This document shows positions 5,298-16,739 of a stretch of 64,000 nucleotides of DNA, piece after piece. Positions within the stretch are counted from its first letter, which is position 1; each line of letters starts with the position of its first letter. Origin of the DNA: Streptomyces sp. NBC_01237 (GTDB taxonomy: Bacteria > Actinomycetota > Actinomycetes > Streptomycetales > Streptomycetaceae); NCBI RefSeq assembly GCF_035917275.1, contig NZ_CP108508.1, positions 7,688,001 to 7,752,000 of the forward strand, written 5' to 3'. The notes below the pieces were generated by a model that was not told where the DNA came from, did no database searches, and saw nothing but the letters and a program-made list of their open reading frames with translations. The position numbers and the translations under genes were made by a program.

Positions 5298-5394
5298 CCG
5301 GGCGGTCGCGGACCGGGCCGTTCCGCCTCGGGCCGTGACCCCGATTGATGAATCGTTGATCGGTCGTTTATCGGGACCGGGCACCGTGAGGCCC

Positions 5395-5652
5395 ATGCTG
5401 ATCAACACCGTGACCGAAGACGAGACACTCGCCTGGCAGGAGAGCGCGCTGTGCGCGCAGGCCGGACCCGAGTTCTTCTTCCCCGCTCCGGGCAGCTCGA
5501 CGCGCGAGGCCAAGCAGTTGTGCAACGCCTGCGAGGGACGAGTGGCCTGCCTGGAGTACGCACTCACCAACGACGAGCGGTTCGGCGTCTGGGGCGGACT
5601 CTCCGAGAAGGAGCGCGAACGGCTGCGCCGAGCCGATCGCGACCGGGCCTGA
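5395..5652 (+). CDS. WhiB-family iron-sulfur transcriptional regulator
   Basis: 85 residues with the four cysteines that hold a [4Fe-4S] cluster (Cys20, Cys43, Cys46, Cys52, spacing CxxC then C after five residues), the G-V-W-G-G turn at 63-67 and a basic C-terminal helix for DNA or sigma-factor contact. WhiB-like proteins act with the principal sigma factor in development, redox response and resistance. Which Wbl paralogue this is cannot be settled here; synteny memory suggests the SCO6715 type. In-frame GTG codons exist at 5335 and 5386, but ATG 5395 gives the usual family N-terminus. Monocistronic. Confidence 0.9.
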   Translation: MLINTVTEDETLAWQESALCAQAGPEFFFPAPGSSTREAKQLCNACEGRVACLEYALTNDERFGVWGGLSEKERERLRRADRDRA

Positions 5653-6039: not shown

Positions 6040-6112
6040 GGTCCCGTAGCGCAGAGGCAGACGCGTCCGTATGACATGCGGAGGGACGCCGGTTCGAATC
6101 CGGTCGGGACCA
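6040..6112 (+). tRNA. tRNA-Val (anticodon GAC) or tRNA-like RNA
   Basis: The 73 nt fold as a cloverleaf: 7-bp acceptor stem (GGTCCCG with CGGGACC), T arm GCCGG-TTCGAAT-CCGGT, anticodon stem TCCGT/GCGGA with loop ATGACAT, anticodon GAC (Val), a five-base variable loop and discriminator A. CCA is not encoded. Odd points: the D stem has only three Watson-Crick pairs plus a C-A mismatch, position 21 is G rather than the near-invariant A, and the loop has A32/T38. Its 3' end lies 16 nt before the next start codon, and that gene's ribosome site GGGGAG begins one base after the tRNA. It may be a functional isoacceptor or a tRNA mimic. Confidence 0.75.
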
Positions 6113-6128
6113 CGGGGAGCGCAGACGC

Positions 6129-7574
6129 ATGCACCACGAAGCGACGTACCGCCATGACGGACCGGCCGGGGGCCGGACCCCGGGCGGAAGCGCGCGCCCC
6201 GCGTCCGCGGACCCGCACGGGGCGGGCCCCGGACGGACCGTCACCGAAGCGGAGTCGGCCGACTTCGACCGGCTCGTCGCCCGGTTTCGCGCACTGCCCG
6301 CCGACGACCCCGTCCGCCTCCGCGCCGAACAGGTCGCCGCGTCGTTCACCCGCGACGGCCGCGGCAAGCGCCGCAGGGCGAGCGGCGAGCGGCGCGCCGC
6401 CGCGGACGCCACCGTCCTGGCGGCCACCGCGACCGGCGCCGAGAACCGGCGGGAGGACGCCCCGCTCGACCCCGCGGGTGCGGCCCCGGCCCCCGCGGGC
6501 ACTCTGGCCCGGCCCCGACGCTGCTACATCTGCAAGGCGGGGTACCGCCGGGTCGACTCCTTCTACCACCTCCTGTGCCCGCAGTGCGCGACGGAGAACA
6601 GGGCCCGGCGCACCAGCCGTACGGATCTGTCGGGGCGGCGCGCCCTGCTGACCGGAGGGCGCGTCAAGATCGGATTCCAGCTGGCGCTGATGATGCTCAG
6701 GGACGGTGCCGACCTTCTCGTCACCACCCGCTTCCCGCACGATCTGCTGCGCCGGTTCCGGGCCGAGGCGGACAGCCCGCAGTGGCTGGAACGGCTCACC
6801 GTGCTCGCCGTGGACCTGCGCGACCCGCGCCAGGTCCTGGGCCTGTGCGAGCAGCTGCGGGAAGCCGGTGAACCGCTCGACATCCTCGTCAACAACGCGG
6901 CCCAGACCGTGCGTCGGCCACCCGGTGCGTACGCCCTGCTGACCGCGGGGGAGCACGGCGCGCTGCCCACCGGCGCGCTGCGCGCACCCGGCTACACACC
7001 GATGTCCGCCGTCGAGGGCACCGTCGCCCCCGGGGCGCTGGCCCTCCTGCTGCCCGACGCGGACGAGGCGGGTCTGCTGCCCGACACCTCACCCGTGAAC
7101 TCCTGGTCGGCGCGGCTCGGTTCGCTCGACCCCGCCGAGGTTCTGGAGACCCAGCTGGTCAACGCGCTGGCCCCGGCACTGCTCTGCGACCGGCTGCTCC
7201 CGTTGCTCCTGGCCTCGCCGGGGCCGCGTCGCTACATCGTCAATGTGACGGCGGTGGAGGGCCGGTTCGCGGTGCGCAACAAGACGGGCGGCCACCCGCA
7301 CACCAATATGGCCAAGGCGGCACTCAACATGCTCACCCGTACCAGCGGCGCCGAACTCTCCGAACAGGGCGTCCATATGTGTGCCGTCGACACCGGTTGG
7401 ATCACGGACGAGAACCCGGCCCCGAAGAAGCGAAGGCTCGCCGCCGGAGGTTTCCGGACGCCCCTCGACACAGTCGACGGGGCGGCCCGCGTCTACGACC
7501 CGATCGTCCGGGGCGAGGCCGGATCCCCCGTCTCCGGTGTGTTCCTCAAGGACTACCGGGAGGCGTCGTGGTGA
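6129..7574 (+). CDS. Zinc-finger/SDR protein with altered active site
   Basis: 481 residues. Residues 1-125 are low-complexity and charged. Residues 130-156 form a Cys4 finger (CYIC ... CPQC; Cys132, 135, 150, 153). From about 168 on there is a short-chain dehydrogenase Rossmann domain: TGGRVKIG at 175-182 in place of the usual TGxxxGIG, then NNAA at 255-258. The catalytic YxxxK is replaced by TNMAK (392-396), so the tyrosine is missing, and the usual serine lies in a changed NVTA context. The stretch HPHTNMAKAALNML looks strongly conserved rather than decayed. It probably binds a nucleotide or RNA-type ligand rather than acting as a standard dehydrogenase. ATG 6129 has GGGGAG upstream. Coupled to the LRR gene. 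Confidence 0.85.
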   Translation: MHHEATYRHDGPAGGRTPGGSARPASADPHGAGPGRTVTEAESADFDRLVARFRALPADDPVRLRAEQVAASFTRDGRGKRRRASGERRAAADATVLAATATGAENRREDAPLDPAGAAPAPAGTLARPRRCYICKAGYRRVDSFYHLLCPQCATENRARRTSRTDLSGRRALLTGGRVKIGFQLALMMLRDGADLLVTTRFPHDLLRRFRAEADSPQWLERLTVLAVDLRDPRQVLGLCEQLREAGEPLDILVNNAAQTVRRPPGAYALLTAGEHGALPTGALRAPGYTPMSAVEGTVAPGALALLLPDADEAGLLPDTSPVNSWSARLGSLDPAEVLETQLVNALAPALLCDRLLPLLLASPGPRRYIVNVTAVEGRFAVRNKTGGHPHTNMAKAALNMLTRTSGAELSEQGVHMCAVDTGWITDENPAPKKRRLAAGGFRTPLDTVDGAARVYDPIVRGEAGSPVSGVFLKDYREASW

Positions 7575-8866
7575 CCCCCGGAACGCCCCCGCCCCCGCCC
7601 CCGCCCGCGCCCCAGCCCATGCCCGTGCCACCGTCCTCGCCGGCCGTGCCCGCCTCGCCGTCCTCCCCGGGCTCCGCGTCGGTCACGTCCTCGCCCCCGT
7701 ACGCGGGAGTGCCCCCGGTGCTGCCCCGCTCGGTCGCGGAACTCGGCCCGTTGCTGGGCTGGTTGCACTCCGGCGTGAGCGCCGGCGAACGGCTGGACTT
7801 CCCGTCGGGCACCGCGCTGCCCGACGGTCGTCTGGACCTGTGCAAACAGGCGCTCGGCCCCCGGGGAGCCGCACTGGTGGCCGGTGCCCTGCGCCCCCGT
7901 GCGGCGGACGGCGGACCCGCCCCCGTACGGCATCTGCTGCTCGGCACCGACGGGCTGGGTGACGAGGGTGCCGGAGCCGTCGCGGACCGCAGCGCGGGAA
8001 CCGGTGTGGAGACCCTCTACCTGGGCTGCAACCGGATCACCGCGGGCGGCGCCTGCCGGATCGCTGACAGCCTGCGCGCCTCGGAGCACCTGGTGACCGG
8101 GGTCTGGCTCAAGCGGAACCCGCTCGGCACCGGAGGCGGACAGGCGGCGGCCCAGCTCGTCGAGGCCGCCGCCACGCTCCGTACCCTCGACCTCGTTCAG
8201 ACCGGACTCGACGCGGCGGGCACCGCCGTCCTCGCCGAGGCGATGCTCACCGCGGCAGTGGCGGGGCGGCCCGTGGAGCGGCTGTTCATCGGCGGCAACG
8301 CGCTCGGACCCGTCGGCGCGGCACCGCTGGCGGCACTCCTGGCCGCCGGGGCGATCACCGAACTCTACGTATCGGCGGCCCGGTTGGGGGACGAGGGGGC
8401 CGATGTGCTCGCAGCCGGCCTGGCCCGCGCGCCGTACGGCCGTACCGCCCGGATCTCCGTCGCCAGCAACGGGATCGGGCCCCGCGCCGCGGCCCGGCTG
8501 GTGACGGCGGCCGCGACGGCGGGTGTGCGCCTGCTCGACCTGGGCCGGGTCCGGGCCGCCGGGACGCTCGGAGCGCCGGACAACCACATCGACACCGAGG
8601 CCGCCGCACGGATCGGGTCCTCTCTCGCGGCGCTCCCGCACCTGCTGACCCACCTCGTCCTCAGCCACACGGGCATGCGCAGCCGGGAGGCCCACCGCAT
8701 CCTGGACACCGCGGCGGACGCGAGCACGGCGACCCGCTACGTCCTGGGCAAGGGCATCGCGACCAGTGTCCGGCGTCGGCTCGACGCGTTCAGCGCGCAC
8801 CTGCCGCGTCCCACGGCGCACGCCGATGTCGCCGCGGTGCGCAGCGTCCACCGGACCGTCGGATAG
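7571..8866 (+). CDS. Leucine-rich-repeat (ribonuclease-inhibitor type) protein
   Basis: 431 residues. A Pro/Ser-rich leader (about residues 1-60) is followed by at least six repeats of roughly 28 residues in the RI/RanGAP style, for example LYLGCNRITAGGACRIADSL, VWLKRNPLGTGGGQAAAQL, LFIGGNALGPVGAAPLAAL and ISVASNGIGPRAAARLV. Such solenoids bind protein or RNA partners; no enzymatic domain or signal peptide is seen. The GTG at 7571 overlaps the SDR stop (GTGA), with GGAGG 7 nt upstream; GTG 7568 is also possible. The tight coupling implies that it works together with the SDR protein. A strong hairpin follows its stop. Confidence 0.85.
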   Translation: MTPGTPPPPPPPAPQPMPVPPSSPAVPASPSSPGSASVTSSPPYAGVPPVLPRSVAELGPLLGWLHSGVSAGERLDFPSGTALPDGRLDLCKQALGPRGAALVAGALRPRAADGGPAPVRHLLLGTDGLGDEGAGAVADRSAGTGVETLYLGCNRITAGGACRIADSLRASEHLVTGVWLKRNPLGTGGGQAAAQLVEAAATLRTLDLVQTGLDAAGTAVLAEAMLTAAVAGRPVERLFIGGNALGPVGAAPLAALLAAGAITELYVSAARLGDEGADVLAAGLARAPYGRTARISVASNGIGPRAAARLVTAAATAGVRLLDLGRVRAAGTLGAPDNHIDTEAAARIGSSLAALPHLLTHLVLSHTGMRSREAHRILDTAADASTATRYVLGKGIATSVRRRLDAFSAHLPRPTAHADVAAVRSVHRTVG

Positions 8867-8870
8867 GGGG

Positions 8871-8900
8871 CCGCGGCCGGTCGGCGGCGTCCGGCCGCGG
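8871..8900 (+). terminator. Hairpin after the SDR-LRR operon
   Basis: CCGCGGCCGG (8871-8880), a 10-nt loop and CCGGCCGCGG (8891-8900) give a perfect 10-bp stem starting 5 nt after the LRR stop. There is no U-tract, which is normal for Streptomyces terminators. It separates the helical-repeat gene downstream, which then needs its own promoter in 8901-8968. Confidence 0.6.
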
Positions 8901-8968
8901 CGGGGCCGTTGTGGATACGCTCCGTAAACTTCTGGGGTGATCCTGTCCGTACACGGCAGAATCGCTCC

Positions 8969-11900
8969 ATGACCGACGCTCAGCCGCTCGTCCTCGCCTG
9001 CACCCTGCTCGACGCCCTGGAGCCGCTCCCGTACCACCGGCGCATGCGGGAACTCGCCGTGCGCGCCCGGCGCCTGGCCGCGGACGGGGTACTTCGGCCC
9101 GTCCTGGAGGAACTGGCGGGCGGCGACCCCTACGAGCGTCACCTCGCCGTCGTCGCCGCGGCCGTCGCCCACGACACGGGGTGGATCGAGGACCGCATCG
9201 CCGACGAGGACCCCCGCGTCAGGGGCGTGGCCCTGCGGGTGGCGCGCGGTCTCGGCGTACCGGACACCGCGTACGAGGCGGCCCTCGACGACGCGCCGGC
9301 GGCCGTACGCCGCCAGTTGATCCGGGCGGTCGTCGCCGACCGCCGCACCGCACTGGCCGACCGGCTGATCGAACCCCTGCGCCGGACCTGGGGCGACGCC
9401 GAGGCGTCCCGGCTGCTGCCCGGCTGTTCGTCCGAGGTGGTGGACCGGCTGCTGCCCGAACTGTTCCGTTCGGTGAGCTGCTGGTCCTCCCTCGGCACCC
9501 ACCACCCCCGCCCGTTCCTCGACGCCGCGGAACGCGACCTGGCGTCGCAGCCCAGGACGCGACGTGACGCCTGGTGGCAGTGGTACGGCCATGAACGCGG
9601 GGTCGCCGCGGCGGCGGCGACCCACCCGCACCGGGTCCTCGACCTCCTGGAGCGGTACGGCCCTTCGGCACTTCCGGTGCGCCAAGGGCTCGGCGAGCTC
9701 CTCGCGGCCGACCCGGTCCGCTTCGCGCGTCTGTTCCTCGGCCCCGAAGGCTTTCGGCCGCCACGCGGCAGAGTGCTCAGCAAGGTGCTGCTGCGGCGCC
9801 TTGCCCGTACGGTGCCCGACGAGCTCCTCGTCGAACTCGGCCGGTCCGTCGCGGACTTCGGGGAGCTGCTCGCCGGGCTGGTCCTGGCCCTTCCGCCGGG
9901 CCGTCGTGGCGCCTTCTACGACGCGGTCGTGGAGGGCCGGGGCGACGGCGCGTCCGGCACCGTCGACACCACGGTGCTGGACGCGCTGCCCCGCAGCCAT
10001 GTGGCGCCCGTGGCCCGGCGGATGGCGGCGAGAGCCCGTGACCGAGGAGCCGGCCGGGACACGGTCCTGCTCGCCGAGTCGTATCTGCCGGTCGCCGAGG
10101 TACGCGAACGGCTCCTGGCGGCGACGCGCAGGCCCGCCGCCGACGACCGGGCCGAAGCCTGGTCGCTGCTCATCCGCAACGCGGGCCGCTCCGCGGACCC
10201 GGCCGCCGTCGCCACCGTGCTCGACGACATGCTGCGGCTGCGCAACGAACAGGACCCGGTCCGCTCCGCCGCGCTGCGCGCCCTGCTCACCGTCCCGCCC
10301 GCGCTCTGCACCGACGCCGTGGAACCCCTGCTGGACCGGATAGCCGCGGACGCGGTGGAGGCCCGCGACTCGTCGGCGGCCACCCGCTCCGCACTCAGCG
10401 CGCTCGCCGTGGGCGTCCTGCGCGAACACGCGGTCACCGGGCAGCGCGCCCTGCTGAACTGGGCCCTGCGCACCCTGGTCCGGATCTCCGGGAACAGCGG
10501 GAGCGCGGACCTCGGCCGGCTCGACCGGACCCTGCGCCGGGGCCAGGAGCACACCGTGCTCGAAGCGCTCAGGCCCTGGCTGGAGGCGGGGGCCGAACGG
10601 TCGGACTACGGCCTCGTCCTCGCCCTGGCACGGGCCGTCGGCCGCCGCGCCACGGCCATGCCGGACCTTCAGGAAATGCTCCGGCAGGCGGTTCTCTACG
10701 GCAACAGCTCCACCGCCGGTGCCGCGATCGGCTTCCGGCTGGAGCCTCCCGCGCACCGGGACGAACGCGTCGAGAGCATTCTGACCCGCGATCCGTCGGC
10801 CATCGGCCTGCCCGCCGTGCGGCAGGTGGTCACCGGGCGCCGCACCGATCTGCTCGACCGGTTCCTCGGCGAGACACCGCCGTGGGGAAGGTTCCTCGCC
10901 GCGGGCACCCCATGGACCGTGCCCGTCGACAACGACGTGATCCGCTGGGTGCCGCGGCAGCACCGGGCCGCCGGCCGGGACCTGGAACGGGTCGTGCGGG
11001 ACGAGAAGCTGCCGCTGTACTCCCGGGCCTCGGCCCTCGGGCAACTGGCCCGGCTGCCGGGCATCGGCGCCGAAGCCGTACGCCCCTGGACCGGCTCGGC
11101 CGACATCGTGCTCGCCGAGGCGGCCCTCGCCGCGCTCGCCCGCACCGACAGGCCCGCCGAGGTGCTGCCCGATCTGCTCGCGCACACCGGTGACGACCGC
11201 GCCCGCGTCGCCGTGTACGCGGCGGGCCGCGTCTCCCTGTTCGTGCGGCCTTCCCAGCTGGCCGGGTCGCTGGCCGCGCGGGTGGCCCCCGGCTCCGGCA
11301 AGGTGACCAGCCGCAAGGAGGTGGTGCGGCTCGCCGCGCTCCGGCTGCCCATCACCCACGCGGCGGGGCTGCTCGCCCACGCGTACGCCCTGCCGGACCA
11401 GCATCCGGACGTGCGGGCCGCCTGTGTGGCCTTCGGCGTCCCCCTCCTCGACGACGAGCGGATATGGGACGTGATGGCCGACGCGGCGAGCGGTGCCGGT
11501 GCACCGCGTTCCGCCGTGCTGCGGGCGGACCCGGCGGAGCTGGCCGCCGGACACCGGCAGCGGTACGCCGGGCTGGTCCAGCGGGTGTGCGACACCGACG
11601 ACGAGGAGCTCGCCGCCCTCGCCCACCACGCGGTGGCCCGCTGGCTGCCGTGGGCGCCCGGCGCGTGCGAGGTCCTGGTGGGCGCGCTCACCGACCTGGA
11701 CCGGCGAGGCACCTGGCGGTCCGCGGCGGACGCGCTGATCGGGGCGGCCATGGCGGCCCCGGAGGCGGTGGACGCGCTCAACCGGGTACTGACGGCCCTG
11801 GCCACCGGCGACACGGCGGACGAGGCGGGCGCCGAGCGGGACCGGCCCGCCCGGCAGCGGGTGGTGTACATGGCCGAGGCGCTCGGCCGGCGGGGCCCGG

Positions 11901-12352
11901 GCCGCGGCCCGCAGGCACGGGCCGTGCTCGGCGCCACCGGGGAAGTACTCGCCGGATTCCGGGACTTCGTGCCGCAGGCGGCCGGTCTGCTCGCGCACGC
12001 CGTGGATCTCGACGCGGACGCGGAGCCCCTGCACTCCGCGCTGGTCCGGCTCGCCGGACTGCACCACGGGCGGCCGGTGCTCGCCGCCCGTACCGCGCAG
12101 AGTGTCGGCCTGCGGGCAGGTGCTGCGGACGGTCCGGCCGTCGGCGGCCTCGACACGCTGCTCGTCGTCACCGCACGCCTCACGGACAGCGGCGACCCGG
12201 CCGAAGGGCTGTTCGCCGCCGGGCTGACCGTGGCGGGAGGCCGCCGCACGGGATGGACGGGGCCCTGGCGCACCCAGCTGCGCATGCTGCGCCAGCACCC
12301 GGCCGCCGATGTGCGGGACGCCGCGTACGCGGAGGTGACGGCGCGCGAGTGA
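8969..12352 (+). CDS. Large helical-repeat (HEAT-like) protein
   Basis: 1127 residues made almost wholly of alternating amphipathic helices rich in Ala, Leu and Arg, such as the opening LVLACTLLDALEPLPYHRRM and later blocks RVSLFVRPSQLAG and LAALAHHAVARWLPW. The pattern fits HEAT/ARM-type solenoids, which act as scaffolds for protein or nucleic acid. No catalytic motif, signal peptide or membrane segment is visible. The ATG at 8969 is chosen because the helical pattern begins there. The possible -10 CAGAAT ends 6 nt before it, so the mRNA may be leaderless. It lies 102 nt after the LRR gene on the same strand, and I infer a functional link with the SDR/LRR pair. Confidence 0.8.
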   Translation: MTDAQPLVLACTLLDALEPLPYHRRMRELAVRARRLAADGVLRPVLEELAGGDPYERHLAVVAAAVAHDTGWIEDRIADEDPRVRGVALRVARGLGVPDTAYEAALDDAPAAVRRQLIRAVVADRRTALADRLIEPLRRTWGDAEASRLLPGCSSEVVDRLLPELFRSVSCWSSLGTHHPRPFLDAAERDLASQPRTRRDAWWQWYGHERGVAAAAATHPHRVLDLLERYGPSALPVRQGLGELLAADPVRFARLFLGPEGFRPPRGRVLSKVLLRRLARTVPDELLVELGRSVADFGELLAGLVLALPPGRRGAFYDAVVEGRGDGASGTVDTTVLDALPRSHVAPVARRMAARARDRGAGRDTVLLAESYLPVAEVRERLLAATRRPAADDRAEAWSLLIRNAGRSADPAAVATVLDDMLRLRNEQDPVRSAALRALLTVPPALCTDAVEPLLDRIAADAVEARDSSAATRSALSALAVGVLREHAVTGQRALLNWALRTLVRISGNSGSADLGRLDRTLRRGQEHTVLEALRPWLEAGAERSDYGLVLALARAVGRRATAMPDLQEMLRQAVLYGNSSTAGAAIGFRLEPPAHRDERVESILTRDPSAIGLPAVRQVVTGRRTDLLDRFLGETPPWGRFLAAGTPWTVPVDNDVIRWVPRQHRAAGRDLERVVRDEKLPLYSRASALGQLARLPGIGAEAVRPWTGSADIVLAEAALAALARTDRPAEVLPDLLAHTGDDRARVAVYAAGRVSLFVRPSQLAGSLAARVAPGSGKVTSRKEVVRLAALRLPITHAAGLLAHAYALPDQHPDVRAACVAFGVPLLDDERIWDVMADAASGAGAPRSAVLRADPAELAAGHRQRYAGLVQRVCDTDDEELAALAHHAVARWLPWAPGACEVLVGALTDLDRRGTWRSAADALIGAAMAAPEAVDALNRVLTALATGDTADEAGAERDRPARQRVVYMAEALGRRGPGRGPQARAVLGATGEVLAGFRDFVPQAAGLLAHAVDLDADAEPLHSALVRLAGLHHGRPVLAARTAQSVGLRAGAADGPAVGGLDTLLVVTARLTDSGDPAEGLFAAGLTVAGGRRTGWTGPWRTQLRMLRQHPAADVRDAAYAEVTARE

Positions 12353-12543: not shown

Positions 12544-13518
12544 TCAGGCCCGGCCGCGCGCGACCATGCGTGCCTTGCGGGCCGCCAGCTTCTCGTCGAA
12601 CTTCGACGCCTCGCTGTCCAGGCCGCCCATGTACAGGCCCAGTTCGTCCTGTGCCTTCAGACCCTCCGGGCCGAGCCCGTCGATGTCGAGGACCTTCAGG
12701 TAGCGCAGGACCGGCTGGATCACGTCGTCGTGGTGGATACGCATGTTGTAGATCTCACCGATCGCCATCTGCGCGGCGGCCCGCTCGAAGCCCGGCATGC
12801 CGTGTCCCGGCATCCGGAAGTTCACGACGACATCGCGCACGGACTGCATCGTCAGATCCGGGGCGAGTTCGAAGGCGGCGCCCAGGAGGTTGCGGTAGAA
12901 GACCATGTGGAGGTTCTCGTCGGTCGCGATCCGGGCCAGCATCCGGTCGCAGACCGGGTCGCCCGACTGGTGGCCGGTGTTGCGGTGCGAGACCCGGGTC
13001 GCCAGCTCCTGGAAGGCGACGTACGCGACGGAGTGCAGCATCGAGTGGCGGTTGTCCGACTCGAAGCCCTCCGCCATGTGCGCCATGCGGAACTGCTCCA
13101 GCTTGTCCGGGTCCACGGCGCGCGAGGTGAGCAGATAGTCGCGCATCACGATGCCGTGCCGGCCCTCCTCCGCGGTCCAGCGGTGCACCCAGGTGCCCCA
13201 GGCGCCGTCACGGCCGAAGAGCGAGGCGATCTCGTGGTGGTAGCTGGGGAGGTTGTCCTCGGTCAGCAGATTCACGACCAGCGCGATCTTGCCGATGTCG
13301 GTCACCTTGGACTGCTCCGGCGCCCAGGCGTCGCCGTCCGCGAAGACACCGGGGAAATTCCGGCCGTCGGAGAACGGGACGTACTCGTGCGGCATCCAGT
13401 CCTTGGCGACCTTGAGATGGCGGTTGAGTTCCTTCTCCACCACCTCTTCCAGCGCGTACAGCAGCTGGGCGTCGGTCCACGCCTTCGAACTGCCGAGGTG
13501 GGGAGAGGTGATCGTCAC
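12544..13518 (-). CDS. Acyl-ACP desaturase (soluble di-iron, type 2)
   Basis: 324 residues. The ligands of the di-iron centre are visible in EDNLPSYHHE, EEGRHG and the second-half ATDENLH, the arrangement of soluble stearoyl-ACP-type desaturases (DesA1/DesA2 in actinobacteria). It introduces a double bond into acyl chains carried by acyl carrier protein, adjusting membrane fluidity, with electrons from a ferredoxin system not encoded here. Start is GTG 13518 with AGGAG 7-8 nt upstream. A palindrome sits 27-59 nt upstream, suggesting repression by a TetR-type lipid regulator. It lies downstream of the DDAH gene, separated by 117 nt. Confidence 0.92.
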   Translation of the reverse strand: MTITSPHLGSSKAWTDAQLLYALEEVVEKELNRHLKVAKDWMPHEYVPFSDGRNFPGVFADGDAWAPEQSKVTDIGKIALVVNLLTEDNLPSYHHEIASLFGRDGAWGTWVHRWTAEEGRHGIVMRDYLLTSRAVDPDKLEQFRMAHMAEGFESDNRHSMLHSVAYVAFQELATRVSHRNTGHQSGDPVCDRMLARIATDENLHMVFYRNLLGAAFELAPDLTMQSVRDVVVNFRMPGHGMPGFERAAAQMAIGEIYNMRIHHDDVIQPVLRYLKVLDIDGLGPEGLKAQDELGLYMGGLDSEASKFDEKLAARKARMVARGRA

Positions 13519-13635: not shown

Positions 13636-14412
13636 TTATGTGTGCAGGTCACGGAGGCGTACGGAGAGGCACGTCACGCAGCCTTCCAGTTTTTCGAACT
13701 CGCTGATATCGACCGCGACGGGCCGGAATCCGAGCTCCCGGAACAGTTCCGCGGACTTCGGGGCGCTCGCCGCCAGCAGCAGATCGCCACCCCCGAGCAG
13801 CACCACATGTGCGCCCGCCTCCTCCGGCACCGGCAGGAACCGTCCGAACACCGAGGGCTCGTCGACCAGGGGCGGGTACCCGATGACCGTCCCGTCGGGG
13901 AGCGCCGTCACCGCGGACTTCAGATGCAGAACCTTGCTGACCGGCACCGCCACGACACAGGCGCCCAAGGGCTCGAAGGCGGCCCGGAGCTGCCGGACCC
14001 CCTCCGCGTTCGTCCGCCCGCCGCACCCGACGTACACCGTGTCGCCGATCTTCAGGACATCGCCGCCGTCGAGCGTGCCGGGCTCGCGGATCCGGTTGAC
14101 CGAGCAGCCGAGCCGCACCAGCGCCTCCTCGACGCCCGGGGTCTCGCCCCGGCGGGACTCCGCCCCGGACCGGGCGATCAGCGCCACGTTGCGGAACATC
14201 ACGACGGCGTCCTCGACGAACACCCCGTCCGGGCAGTCGTCGGCCCGGTCCGCCTCGACCGTGTCCCAGCCGTGCTCGGCGAGCACGGCGACGTACCGCT
14301 CCCACTGCTCCGCGGCCAGTCCGACATCGACGGGTATGCGCTCGGCATGGGTCACGAGCCCCTCGCTGAGTCGCGGGCTCGCACGGCGGACCAGGGCTGT
14401 TCTGCTGGGCAC
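13636..14412 (-). CDS. Dimethylarginine dimethylaminohydrolase (DDAH)
   Basis: 258 residues, matching the family length. The pentein fold signatures are present: the substrate aspartate/glutamate stretch CPDGVFVEDAVVMF, the catalytic-histidine region PGTLDGGDVLKIGDTVYVG with HLKSAVTALPDG, and the C-terminal nucleophile Cys in EKLEGCVTCLS. It hydrolyses methylated arginine to citrulline and a methylamine. Start is taken as GTG 14412, with GGAG 8 nt upstream; a longer frame to 14472 is only low-complexity sequence overlapping the upstream gap. It follows the UvrA-like gene after 38 nt and may be co-transcribed with it. Confidence 0.9.
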   Translation of the reverse strand: MPSRTALVRRASPRLSEGLVTHAERIPVDVGLAAEQWERYVAVLAEHGWDTVEADRADDCPDGVFVEDAVVMFRNVALIARSGAESRRGETPGVEEALVRLGCSVNRIREPGTLDGGDVLKIGDTVYVGCGGRTNAEGVRQLRAAFEPLGACVVAVPVSKVLHLKSAVTALPDGTVIGYPPLVDEPSVFGRFLPVPEEAGAHVVLLGGGDLLLAASAPKSAELFRELGFRPVAVDISEFEKLEGCVTCLSVRLRDLHT

Positions 14413-14450
14413 GAGGGCTCTCCAGGGGCGTGGCGGCGGTCGGGCCGCCA

Positions 14451-16739
14451 TCATGCCCCGCGGCCTCGCCATTGCTCCAGATCCCGGCGCAGATACGCGG
14501 CGGTGAACGAGGTGCGATGCGCCGCCAGCGCCGCTGGGGTGCCCTCGAAGACCAGCTCGCCGCCGTTCCTGCCGCCGTCGGGGCCGAGGTCGATCACCCA
14601 GTCCGCCCGCTTGACCACATCCAGGTTGTGCTCGACGCAGATGACGGTGTTGCCCGCGTCGACCAGCCGGTCCAGCAGATCCACCAGTGTGCCGGTGTCG
14701 GCCATGTGCAGTCCGGTCGTCGGCTCGTCCAGGACGTACACACTGCCCGTACGGTGCAGCCGCGTCGCGAACTTGATGCGCTGGAGCTCACCGCCCGAGA
14801 GCGAACTGAGGGGCCGGCCCAGCGTGAGGTACCCGAGCCCGACCTCGTCCAGCGTGCGCAACTTCCGCAGCAGAGCAGGGTCGTCGAACAGCCCGACGGC
14901 CTGAGCGGCCGTCATGTCCAGTACGTCGACGATGGACTTGCCGCCGACCCGGTGCGCGAGGACGTGGTCCTGGAAGCGCCGCCCCTCGCACATCCGGCAG
15001 GTCGTGGTGACCGGATCCATGAACGCGAGATCGGTGATGATCACGCCTCGTCCCGCACACGCGGCGCAGGCCCCCGAGGAGTTGAAGCTGAACAGTCCCG
15101 GATCGACACCGTTCTCCTTGGCGAAGACCTTGCGGATGGTGTCGAGCGCGCCGAGGTACGAGGCCGGGGTGGAACGGGACGAGGCGGTGATCGCCGTCTG
15201 GTCGACGACCACCGCGTCCGGGTACGCCGCCGTGAATACCCGCGACACCAGAGTCGACTTGCCGGACCCGGCCACCCCGGTCACCGCCGTCAGCACCCCG
15301 ACGGGGAACGACACGTCCACGCCCTTGAGGTTGTGCAGGTCGGCGCCGGACACCGGGAGCCACCCGGTCGGGGAGCGGAACGCCTCCTTCACCGGGGTGC
15401 GCCGGCGCAGACACCGGCCGGTGAGCGTACCGGCCTCGCGCAGCCGGTCGAAGGACCCCTCGAAGACGACGCGCCCGCCGTCGGTGCCGGCGCCCGGCCC
15501 CATGTCGACGACATGGTCGGCGACGGCCATCACATCCGGGTCGTGTTCCACCACCAGCACGGTGTTGCCCTTGTCCCGGAGCCGTACCAGCAGATCGTTG
15601 AGCCTGCCGACGTCGCGCGGATGCAGTCCGACGCTCGGTTCGTCGAAGACGAAGGTCAGGCCGGTGAGTGAACTGCCCAGATGGCGCACCATCTTGAGCC
15701 GCTGTCCCTCACCGCCCGACAGCGTGGTGGTCTCCCGGTCCAGACTGAGATAGCCGAGGCCGATGCCGACCAGACGCTCCAGCCGTTCGCGGGCGGCCAC
15801 CGCGATCGGACCCGCCACCGGATCGTCGATCTTCGCCAGTACGCCGACGAGGTCGGCCACCTCCATCCTCGCGTAGTCGGCGGGGGAGTGCCCGTCGATA
15901 CGGGTGGCGAGCGCCGCCGCGTTGAGCCGCGCACCGTCGCAGGAGCCGCACACCGTCTCGACGGTGAACCGGCGGGCGGCCTCGCGCCGTTTCTCGGAGA
16001 GCGACTCCGTGTCCCGCTTGAGGTAGAGCCGCTCGAAGCGTTCCACGACGCCCTCGAACCGCATGTCCGCCGAGGCGGTCCGCAGCTCCAGGCGGACCGT
16101 GAACCCCTTGCCGTGCAGCAGGAGGCGGCGCTCCTCCTCGGTGTAGTCCGCCAGCGGCCGGTCGTTGTCGAAGCGCCCCGAACCGGCGTACAGGTTCCAC
16201 TCCCAGCTGCCGACCGAGAGGCCGGGCAGCAGGAGAGCCCCTTCGTTGAGCGACTTCGACCAGTCGACCGCCCGGTCGAGGTCCAGCCGGACCGTGCGGC
16301 CCACGCCGTCGCACTCGGGGCACATACCGCCGGGATCGTTGAACGAGTACGCGGTCGCCGGCCCGGCGCTCGGCGTGCCGTGCCGGGAGAACAGCACCCG
16401 GATCACTGACCAGATGTCGGTCATCGTGCCGACGGTGGAGCGCACATTGCCGCCCACGGGCTTCTGGTCGACGATGATCGCCACCGACAGGTCCTCGACG
16501 GACTCGACGTGCGGCCGCTCGTACTTCGGCAGCCGGTTCCTGAGGAACGAGGTGAAGGTCTCGTTCAGCTGCCGCCGCGATTCGACGGCGATGGTGTCGA
16601 AGACGATCGAGGACTTGCCCGACCCGGACACCCCGGTGAAGACGGTGATGCGGCCCTTGGGGAGAGTGAGGGAGACGTCGCGGAGGTTGTTCTCGCGCGC
16701 GCCGGTGATGATGATGCTCCGGTCCATGTTCCGATCCAT
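14451..16739 (-). CDS. UvrA-like ABC ATPase (probable drug-resistance paralogue)
   Basis: 762 residues, clearly shorter than housekeeping UvrA (about 950). Two ATPase halves are complete: Walker A GVSGSGKS and GVAGSGKS, signatures LSGGEGQRLKM and LSGGELQRIKF, Walker B VFDEPSVGLH and LDEPTTGLH. Zinc pairs are kept (CPEC, CGSC, CAAC, CRMC). Paralogues of this size, such as DrrC of daunorubicin producers, protect against DNA-binding drugs rather than taking part in full nucleotide-excision repair. The reduced N-terminal region suggests loss of the UvrB-docking part. A 13-bp palindrome upstream suggests regulated expression. ATG 16739 is used; ATG at codon 5 is an alternative. Confidence 0.9.
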   Translation of the reverse strand: MDRNMDRSIIITGARENNLRDVSLTLPKGRITVFTGVSGSGKSSIVFDTIAVESRRQLNETFTSFLRNRLPKYERPHVESVEDLSVAIIVDQKPVGGNVRSTVGTMTDIWSVIRVLFSRHGTPSAGPATAYSFNDPGGMCPECDGVGRTVRLDLDRAVDWSKSLNEGALLLPGLSVGSWEWNLYAGSGRFDNDRPLADYTEEERRLLLHGKGFTVRLELRTASADMRFEGVVERFERLYLKRDTESLSEKRREAARRFTVETVCGSCDGARLNAAALATRIDGHSPADYARMEVADLVGVLAKIDDPVAGPIAVAARERLERLVGIGLGYLSLDRETTTLSGGEGQRLKMVRHLGSSLTGLTFVFDEPSVGLHPRDVGRLNDLLVRLRDKGNTVLVVEHDPDVMAVADHVVDMGPGAGTDGGRVVFEGSFDRLREAGTLTGRCLRRRTPVKEAFRSPTGWLPVSGADLHNLKGVDVSFPVGVLTAVTGVAGSGKSTLVSRVFTAAYPDAVVVDQTAITASSRSTPASYLGALDTIRKVFAKENGVDPGLFSFNSSGACAACAGRGVIITDLAFMDPVTTTCRMCEGRRFQDHVLAHRVGGKSIVDVLDMTAAQAVGLFDDPALLRKLRTLDEVGLGYLTLGRPLSSLSGGELQRIKFATRLHRTGSVYVLDEPTTGLHMADTGTLVDLLDRLVDAGNTVICVEHNLDVVKRADWVIDLGPDGGRNGGELVFEGTPAALAAHRTSFTAAYLRRDLEQWRGRGA

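Follow-up and report, generated by a model that had tools for sequence, protein, structure and literature searches.

A family of tRNA-like RNAs whose body is constant but whose anticodon loop changes lies beside a Cys4-SDR gene in Streptomyces and related actinomycetes

In bacterial Y RNA/Rsr (Ro60) particles, a protein that combines helical repeats with a vWA fold holds a tRNA-like RNA, and in type III toxin–antitoxin systems tandem structured RNAs lie upstream of a protein restrained by them. Here we report on a tRNA-like gene and the short-chain dehydrogenase/reductase (SDR) gene behind it in a 64,000-nt stretch of Streptomyces sp. NBC_01237 (contig NZ_CP108508.1; C1:7688001-7752000 of a 10.2-Mb genome), the whole of which we call the window. 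The RNA is one member of a tRNA-like family found in one to three tandem copies just upstream of genes for an SDR with a four-cysteine motif (Cys4-SDR), and, as read from the aligned sequences, the family combines constant D- and T-arms with a fast-changing anticodon loop. Two published themes are also close to it: the MoxR–vWA ternary conflict systems, described in the sections used here as an ATPase and a vWA protein with extra partners, patchily distributed in multicellular bacteria (Kaur et al. 2020, PMC7159879), and the hypothesis of a phage–host contest over anticodon loops, in which, according to the part of the source drawn on, phage tRNAs with loops changed under nuclease pressure are thought to resist cutting and sustain translation (PMC10264068).

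Like canonical tRNAs (RF00005), the family RNAs have a cloverleaf, a T-loop, conserved D-loop bases and mostly a 7-nt anticodon loop; unlike them, they set 18 anticodons on one body, carry an extra D-stem base, mostly lack the acceptor-end determinants of the isoacceptor and, a Trp type excepted, turn their anticodons over fast. The pairing of a tRNA-like RNA with helical-repeat and vWA proteins recalls the Y RNA/Rsr particle, but no TROVE match was obtained for the cassette proteins scanned with Pfam, and here the RNA is a full cloverleaf with a variable anticodon. Type III toxin–antitoxin systems likewise place structured RNAs in tandem ahead of a protein gene, whereas here the RNA is tRNA-like, no nuclease toxin was recognized, and pairing of protein and RNA is not obligate, since 11 of 53 genomes keep the SDR although its locus has no intact RNA. 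From the MoxR–vWA systems the locus differs in having RNAs and a pseudo-SDR at its core. Its ATPase matches Pfam AAA_5, and LRR and SDR proteins are its further partners; a term search of PMC7159879 found neither DUF2201 nor a leucine-rich component in the text, and mentions of tRNA and dehydrogenase were limited to the reference list. In contrast to the phage tRNAs, as far as the sections of PMC10264068 drawn on describe them, the RNAs here are chromosomal mimics on one body with no clear charging ability. No specific PADLOC match, only weak generic ATPase matches, relates the cassette to a known anti-phage system, and searches of Rfam, PADLOC, NCBIfam and full-text literature, the last judged by title or abstract in a corpus with few preprints and subscription journals, gave no description of RNA family or cassette. 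Current databases label the Cys4-SDR “SDR family oxidoreductase”, and the other cassette genes “hypothetical protein” or “DUF2201 family”; the gene finder reads the RNAs as assorted tRNAs.

The window contains the full block of RNA, SDR, leucine-rich-repeat (LRR) and 1127-residue protein genes, with the following features:

6040..6112, + strand: tRNA-like RNA with D-arm GTAGCGCAGAGGCAGNCGC and T-arm GCCGGTTCGAATCCGG, the family's constant body; CCA not encoded
6071..6077, + strand: anticodon loop AUGACAU, with anticodon GAC at 6073-6075; the family's hypervariable part
6129..7574, + strand: Cys4-SDR protein, 481 aa; adh_short and adh_short_C2 above cut-off
6522..6587, + strand: Cys4 zinc-finger-like motif CYIC-x14-CPQC; four Cys invariant in 37/37 relatives, zinc binding predicted
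6624..7571, + strand: SDR domain with canonical Ser and Tyr replaced (Ala251, Thr268 of the 357-aa core) and Lys272 retained
7571..8866, + strand: LRR protein; LRR_6 match, E 1.4e-6
8969..12352, + strand: 1127-aa putative helical-repeat protein, a sporadic accessory at the site

The initial annotation had read this block as a tRNA-shaped gene followed at 16 nt by an SDR-fold protein with an added Cys4 finger and an altered catalytic motif, overlapped in turn by an LRR protein, and all of these claims were borne out. Thus, ARAGORN called a tRNA-Val(GAC) at 6040-6113, Rfam matched RF00005 at 6040-6112 with 53.1 bits, and the gap is exactly 16 nt, position 73 of the RNA being base 6112 and the SDR ATG lying at 6129. 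The LRR start overlaps the SDR stop, with GTG at 7571 over TGA at 7572-7574 (GTGA; alternative start 7568).

A search for the SDR across genomes from 84,980 species supplied its 80 best loci for analysis. Upstream, same-strand tRNA-shaped genes, one to three in number, were present in 18 of the 27 among these loci with an SDR identity of at least 59% (L058-L084); L061 has an intact RNA downstream and a decayed one upstream, and L067, L071, L074-L077, L080 and L083 have none. Genera with upstream RNAs were Streptomyces, Kitasatospora, Streptacidiphilus, Actinospica, Kutzneria, Amycolatopsis, Lentzea, Murinocardiopsis and Kibdelosporangium. From 281 ARAGORN calls in all loci collected up to that point, 184 fitted the family pattern, which defined membership for the counts, and 130 of them were distinct; 11 further members in the same loci were overlooked by the pattern. 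Across the family, ARAGORN assigned the isotypes Val, Ala, Gly, Asp, Glu, Ser, Cys, Trp and Arg to near-identical bodies.

The family folds as a covarying cloverleaf. In an alignment of 48 RNAs, 93.7% of cells were paired compared with 75.8% after shuffling, none of 500 shuffles being as good, and double-change cells numbered 156 compared with 50.6 in the shuffled sets, with double changes in 16 pairs; versions of the cloverleaf pairing slid along the alignment reached 49.5% at most. In the D stem, an invariant G is accompanied by an additional base that varies. Model R1, built from these 48 RNAs, gave the window RNA, itself part of the model, 83.5 bits, against at most 66.7 bits for the ordinary tRNAs of its genome that were looked at; members seen later scored up to 88.7 bits, most above 73 and a few at 60-68. 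A phylum-wide draw of 296 genomes yielded two that passed R1 at E 1e-12, both in the genus of the window.

To describe the anticodon loop quantitatively, we compared the variability of the parts of the RNA. In the upstream type with the D-arm AGAGC...ACTCG (23 distinct members), mean entropy was 0.04 bits in the D-arm, 0.07 in the T-arm and 0.14 in the anticodon stem, while positions 34, 35 and 36 had 1.0, 0.97 and 0 bits; the acceptor stem (0.5-0.7 bits) and position 73 (1.57) vary as well. When mapped onto the SDR tree (37 loci), the anticodon changed at least 11 times among the 23 rows of this type (RNA-2) and 16 times among the 26 rows of the CCGG type. Close relatives, 13 RNA comparisons from ten pairs, differed at 22 of 91 loop positions but at only 42 of 845 elsewhere (binomial p 7e-8, a value that treats positions as independent, from pairs hand-picked on the tree, with some rows used twice and three comparisons of unequal length dropped). 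One RNA of L062 and L274 differs at three of the seven loop positions and at none of the 65 others; three of the 13 comparisons had no loop change.

The loop obeys one rule: C occupies position 35 or 36. It holds for each of the 128 distinct members whose anticodon has three letters, which together use 18 anticodons, and for all 11 members missed by the pattern, compared with 20 of 44 anticodons among the other tRNAs of the window's genome, so that the family is limited to codons of the form GNN or NGN.

We then asked how closely the RNA is tied to the SDR gene in 293 genomes of the order. An SDR match at E <= 1e-95 was found in 64 of these, 11 having only a distant form (55-60%) and 53 a closer form, SDR-A (at least 65%; G081 is included despite a partial match). 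R1 matches in the 293 genomes were the best matches listed, and seemingly empty loci were rescanned with R1. On this basis, an RNA lay directly upstream of the SDR in 39 of the 53 SDR-A genomes, 38 among the matches listed plus G090, whose copy bears an insertion. G104 and G170 have an intact RNA downstream only, G170 together with a decayed upstream copy (40.3 bits), and G081 has one RNA 9.4 kb upstream and another beside its vWA gene. In 41 loci with an upstream RNA (two pairs being the same genome twice), the first possible SDR start came 4-188 nt after position 73, with a median of 29 nt, the 188-nt gaps of L042 and L078 being measured from the second-nearest RNA; RNA and Cys4-SDR gene are probably co-transcribed. 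Since the RNA covaries and its place beside the SDR recurs in tens of genomes, the arrangement is more than chance.

The LRR gene came next after the SDR in 25 of 34 RNA-bearing loci examined, compared with 0 of 11 loci lacking an intact RNA; the count excludes six RNA-bearing genomes and two short-contig loci, where an LRR gene was found, in one case cut. One of those 11 genomes, G013 (L038), has two decayed RNA copies in place (35.3 and 26.7 bits). Probable decayed copies at the usual upstream position (L038:8422-8571, L061:7552-7622 and L319:7772-7841; R1 26.7-44.9 bits) indicate that the RNAs are being lost in some lineages.

A fuller cassette continues beyond RNA(s), SDR and LRR with an AAA_5-type ATPase, a DUF2201/vWA protein, often another RNA, and a small, probably helical protein. 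Pfam scans of these last three proteins covered one or two loci each, and the adjacency of ATPase and vWA gene was read from tblastn: in L060 the ATPase matched AAA_5 and its partner DUF2201_N above cut-off, with VWA-like DUF2201 below it, and the vWA protein of L045 stayed below cut-off. The RNA beside the vWA gene is Trp-CCA in Streptomyces and Ala or Arg in Kutzneria, Amycolatopsis and Streptacidiphilus. The vWA gene was found in 32 of the 293 genomes, 28 of them with SDR-A and all 28 also with the RNA, and in none of the 11 SDR-A genomes whose locus has no intact RNA; G048, a 77%-complete genome, has vWA and RNA with no SDR match. The window's own genome gave no vWA match, and the window carries a reduced cassette of one RNA, SDR, LRR and an optional helical-repeat protein. 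In Streptomyces, the window included, the cassette is flanked on one side by a glyoxalase-like and a WhiB-like gene (the latter by eye) and on the other by a desaturase gene. Related genomes hold the SDR alone at this site, where the cassette comes and goes. Candidate neighbors were also discarded: cluster c4 beside the cassette was a mirror-strand false open reading frame of the AAA gene, and clusters c31, c26 and c9, seen in one clade, were ordinary quinone oxidoreductase-like, HelR-like and MFS genes.

In the Cys4-SDR protein, the four finger cysteines were invariant in all 37 aligned relatives, which include both SDR forms. The sequence is of Rossmann type (PF13561 and PF00106 above cut-off), and its nearest solved structures by sequence are ordinary SDRs at E 5e-8 or weaker; the catalytic positions, as assigned by motif, depart from those of classical SDRs, with Thr268 for Tyr (YxxxK reading TNMAK) and Ala251 for Ser in 37 of 37 relatives, Lys272 being kept. 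The glycine motif TGxxxGxG reads TGGR[VA]KIG, one of the 37 (L079) having TGAR. These replacements suggest that the protein is probably inactive as an oxidoreductase and may be a nucleotide-binding scaffold rather than an enzyme. The other SDR form (group B) occurs in nearly all Streptomyces searched, with an ordinary tRNA-Leu upstream in L085, L089, L115, L126 and L136, and has a family member upstream only in L134. At this Micromonospora locus, two tRNA-likes (Ala-AGC and Ser-GCT; L134:5522-5679) lie upstream of group B SDR genes.

The product of the fourth gene of the block had been annotated as a 1127-residue helical-repeat protein, and the reading frame is real, having nine near-full-length homologues with 38-58% identity. 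Pfam found no match in the protein itself; a sub-threshold HEAT match in one of two scanned homologues and a sub-threshold PDS5 match in the other hint at helical repeats. Homologues are present in 21 of 61 genomes, its own included, but beside the SDR only in the window, and a homologue adjoins the cassette in three further loci (L060, L262 and L267). ARAGORN made one call in 22 loci of homologues (about 1.5 kb flanks), by eye outside the family. A general link between this protein and the RNA was rejected because it mostly occurs unlinked; it is an occasional addition to the cassette. Thus, of the RNA-centered complex proposed initially, a comparison of neighborhoods across actinomycete genomes retains the recurrent unit of RNA, SDR and LRR, which makes such a complex a sensible idea, leaves out the 1127-residue protein and adds the species-to-species change of anticodon and the usual ATPase and vWA partners, while the suggested role in tRNA repair or modification gained no direct support.

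We next compared the family RNAs with host tRNAs. For 81 distinct anticodon arms, the anticodon excluded, the best same-anticodon tRNA of the own genome matched at 9.5 of 14 positions against a mean of 6.1 for the others, figures that set a best score against a mean; the fair test is label permutation. By class (13 classes), this gave a rank fraction of 0.26 compared with 0.37 for permuted labels, a value reached in 39 of 5000 permutations. Exact 17-nt copies of host arms were found for Ala(GGC), Asp(GTC) and Trp(CCA), and the arm of the window RNA resembles the Ala(GGC)-type arm of L058 with an altered anticodon. At the acceptor end, where the own genome's tRNAs were the sole host reference, identity with the host isoacceptor was limited to 38 of 118 at N73, 31 of 118 at the 1-72 pair, 68 of 118 at 2-71 and 47 of 118 at 3-70; G3-U70 occurred in 3 of 26 Ala types, and a long variable arm in none of 12 Ser types. 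CCA is encoded in 1 of 124 family RNAs, and U33 is present in 107 of 124. The window RNA does agree with host tRNA-Val(GAC) at N73 (A), 1-72 and 2-71. At the position-73 register, all 21 Trp-type RNAs on the vWA side have C, in contrast to the G of host tRNA-Trp. Since the anticodon arms tend to be host-like and the acceptor ends do not, the family RNAs are probably not spare tRNAs.

We propose, tentatively and at somewhat less than an even chance, a ribonucleoprotein for surveillance that displays host-like anticodon arms as a replaceable bait. In such a particle, the Cys4-SDR, with LRR and helical-repeat partners, would hold the constant RNA body, and the exposed host-style anticodon arm would be a bait that lures enzymes or toxins directed against the anticodons of tRNAs, a role that the arm's host-like look and quick turnover would fit. 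Binding or cutting of the bait might be sensed and lead the ATPase/vWA pair to remodel the complex to an active state, by analogy with known MoxR–vWA pairs, which capture a peptide and remodel a partner according to the sections of PMC7159879 used here. Recognition would lie with the hypervariable loop, whose continual change an arms race would maintain; a contest of phage and host over anticodon loops is a published hypothesis (PMC10264068, as far as drawn on). That the locus stands for an undescribed RNA-containing surveillance class, a dead-SDR ribonucleoprotein with LRR/solenoid and ATPase/vWA partners that carries interchangeable anticodon arms on a constant chassis and senses agents attacking host tRNAs, is a slightly more doubtful proposition.

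Several observations weigh against the bait proposal. The loss of an intact RNA from the locus in 11 of 53 SDR-A genomes implies that the SDR has some RNA-independent role, G147, G214 and G281 have vWA and ATPase genes with no SDR, LRR or RNA within 20 kb, and related RNAs also occur alone in unrelated neighborhoods. The anticodon itself is constant (CCA, 21 of 21) in the Trp-type RNA beside the vWA gene, and in one clade of seven loci (L043-L049) the anticodon arm is long, nearly invariant and not tRNA-like. Arm mimicry is modest by class (39/5000, with a single host genome as reference), does not extend to the Gly(CCC) and Val(CAC, GAC) classes and is poor in the window RNA, whose arm ranks at 0.88-0.89 against host tRNA-Val. 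Finally, no effector was identified in the cassette, and no defense, toxin or nuclease family was recognized, PADLOC giving weak generic matches to the ATPase and none to the other proteins scanned.

The nearest alternative is that the RNAs are genuine additional tRNAs with a special decoding task, which anticodon-reading synthetases might charge and which would decode GNN/NGN codons under some condition. Their full fold with T-loop, mostly with U33, the partial agreement of loop bases with the host isoacceptor and the true-looking tRNA-Thr genes with the same D-arm on a viral contig would suit it; we nevertheless consider it unlikely, since synthetases read determinants in the tRNA and those of the isoacceptor are mostly absent from the acceptor ends, a long variable arm is missing from the Ser types, C73 stands against the host G in the Trp type on the vWA side, and the allele of L043-L049 has no tRNA-like loop. 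The near-absence of an encoded CCA points the same way, though CCA can be added later. Charging is also assumed by an aminoacyl donor system, in which the SDR or another enzyme would move the aminoacyl group to a metabolite, comparable to the tRNA-dependent chemistry of peptides or lanthipeptides. Dedicated tRNA-like genes adjoining a Rossmann-type protein in an actinobacterial setting are what this would predict, but it is improbable, given that no aminoacyl-tRNA-using domain was recognized in the cassette proteins scanned, that Ser and Tyr are lost from the SDR in 37 of 37 relatives, that identity elements are poor, and that it leaves the anticodon variation unexplained.

Other alternatives rest on the position of the RNA. 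An arrangement like that of type III toxin–antitoxin systems, with the RNA as antidote to one of the cassette proteins, would match the tandem RNAs immediately upstream of a protein gene and the compact, patchy cassette; the SDR, which persists without an intact RNA, is hence not an obligate toxin, and no nuclease-like domain was recognized in the proteins scanned, so that we give this idea little credence, although the LRR protein, absent from the 11 loci lacking an intact RNA, could still be the restrained one. We likewise see a slim chance for a cis-acting leader or processing signal, in which the tRNA fold would set SDR expression through RNase P or tRNA-like sensing: the short distance to the first possible SDR start agrees with it, but other copies of the RNA flank the vWA gene on the opposite strand or occur alone at other places, up to three stand in tandem, and the turnover of the anticodon loop is left without a reason. 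Because tRNA genes are insertion sites of mobile DNA, the cassette may merely have landed beside them, and the recurrent Streptomyces site, the coming and going of the cassette there and the decayed RNAs in L038, L061 and L319 would be in keeping with such hitch-hiking. It is nonetheless the least probable account, as one special RNA family recurs in tandem, on the same strand and at near-constant distance in several genera, with loops that change while the body stays. Weighing the decayed copies left the odds of all these explanations unchanged.

Family members were also seen away from the SDR. The window's genome has a second one (C1:4585929-4586003, L237:9930-10004), of Trp-CCA type with 73.4 bits, which has the variant D-arm GAGGTCGTCGC, adjoins an ordinary tRNA-Ser and has no SDR match beside it. 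Across 14 loci with RNAs not beside an SDR, no gene family was common to most neighborhoods; an MFS cluster recurs beside the RNAs in L238-L240. Separate tandem arrays of three to four tRNA-likes lie at L239:9601-9841 (Arg, Glu, Arg) and L240:9967-10376 (Trp, Asp, Arg, Cys), in one clade and after a protein weakly resembling c16 of the main cassette, and L219 and L222 have members with a UCA anticodon. In phage records, the window RNA had no match. Four IMG/VR stretches fit the D-arm pattern: two near-identical ones carry a viral tRNA array with tRNA-Thr at 75-77 bits with R1, while neither an R1 match nor a tRNA was obtained from the remaining two. On a piece of a 145-kb viral contig with 16 tRNA genes, two tRNA-Thr with the family's unusual D-arm lie at L277:850-925 and 2513-2588. 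The viral tRNA-Thr genes (GGT, CGT), which break the C35/C36 rule, are a possible source of the family chassis. Among four plasmid matches, three regions were examined, two of which held ordinary-looking tRNAs and one a family-like RNA (L283, Ala-GGC).

Around the block in the window, a short Cys-rich protein, WhiB-like by eye, is encoded directly upstream of the RNA (5394-5652, + strand), its cluster recurring here in several relatives. Rfam matched ASdes, a mycobacterial antisense small RNA, at 13100-13167 (+ strand; 66 bits), antisense to a fatty-acid desaturase gene (12544-13518, - strand), which may be a mere reflection of conserved coding sequence. Further on, a UvrA-like ATPase by eye (762 aa; 14451-16739, - strand) adjoins a dimethylargininase-like gene (13636-14472, - strand).

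If the bait proposal is true, tRNA mimics with a module-like anticodon arm tied to a protein machine would be a new form of RNA-based recognition, bait by mimicry, and would offer a handle on which tRNA-targeting weapons actinomycetes meet, while explaining genes that now stand under generic labels. The immune reading aside, a constant body with a hypervariable anticodon is unexpected in tRNA biology and is directly testable in culturable Streptomyces.

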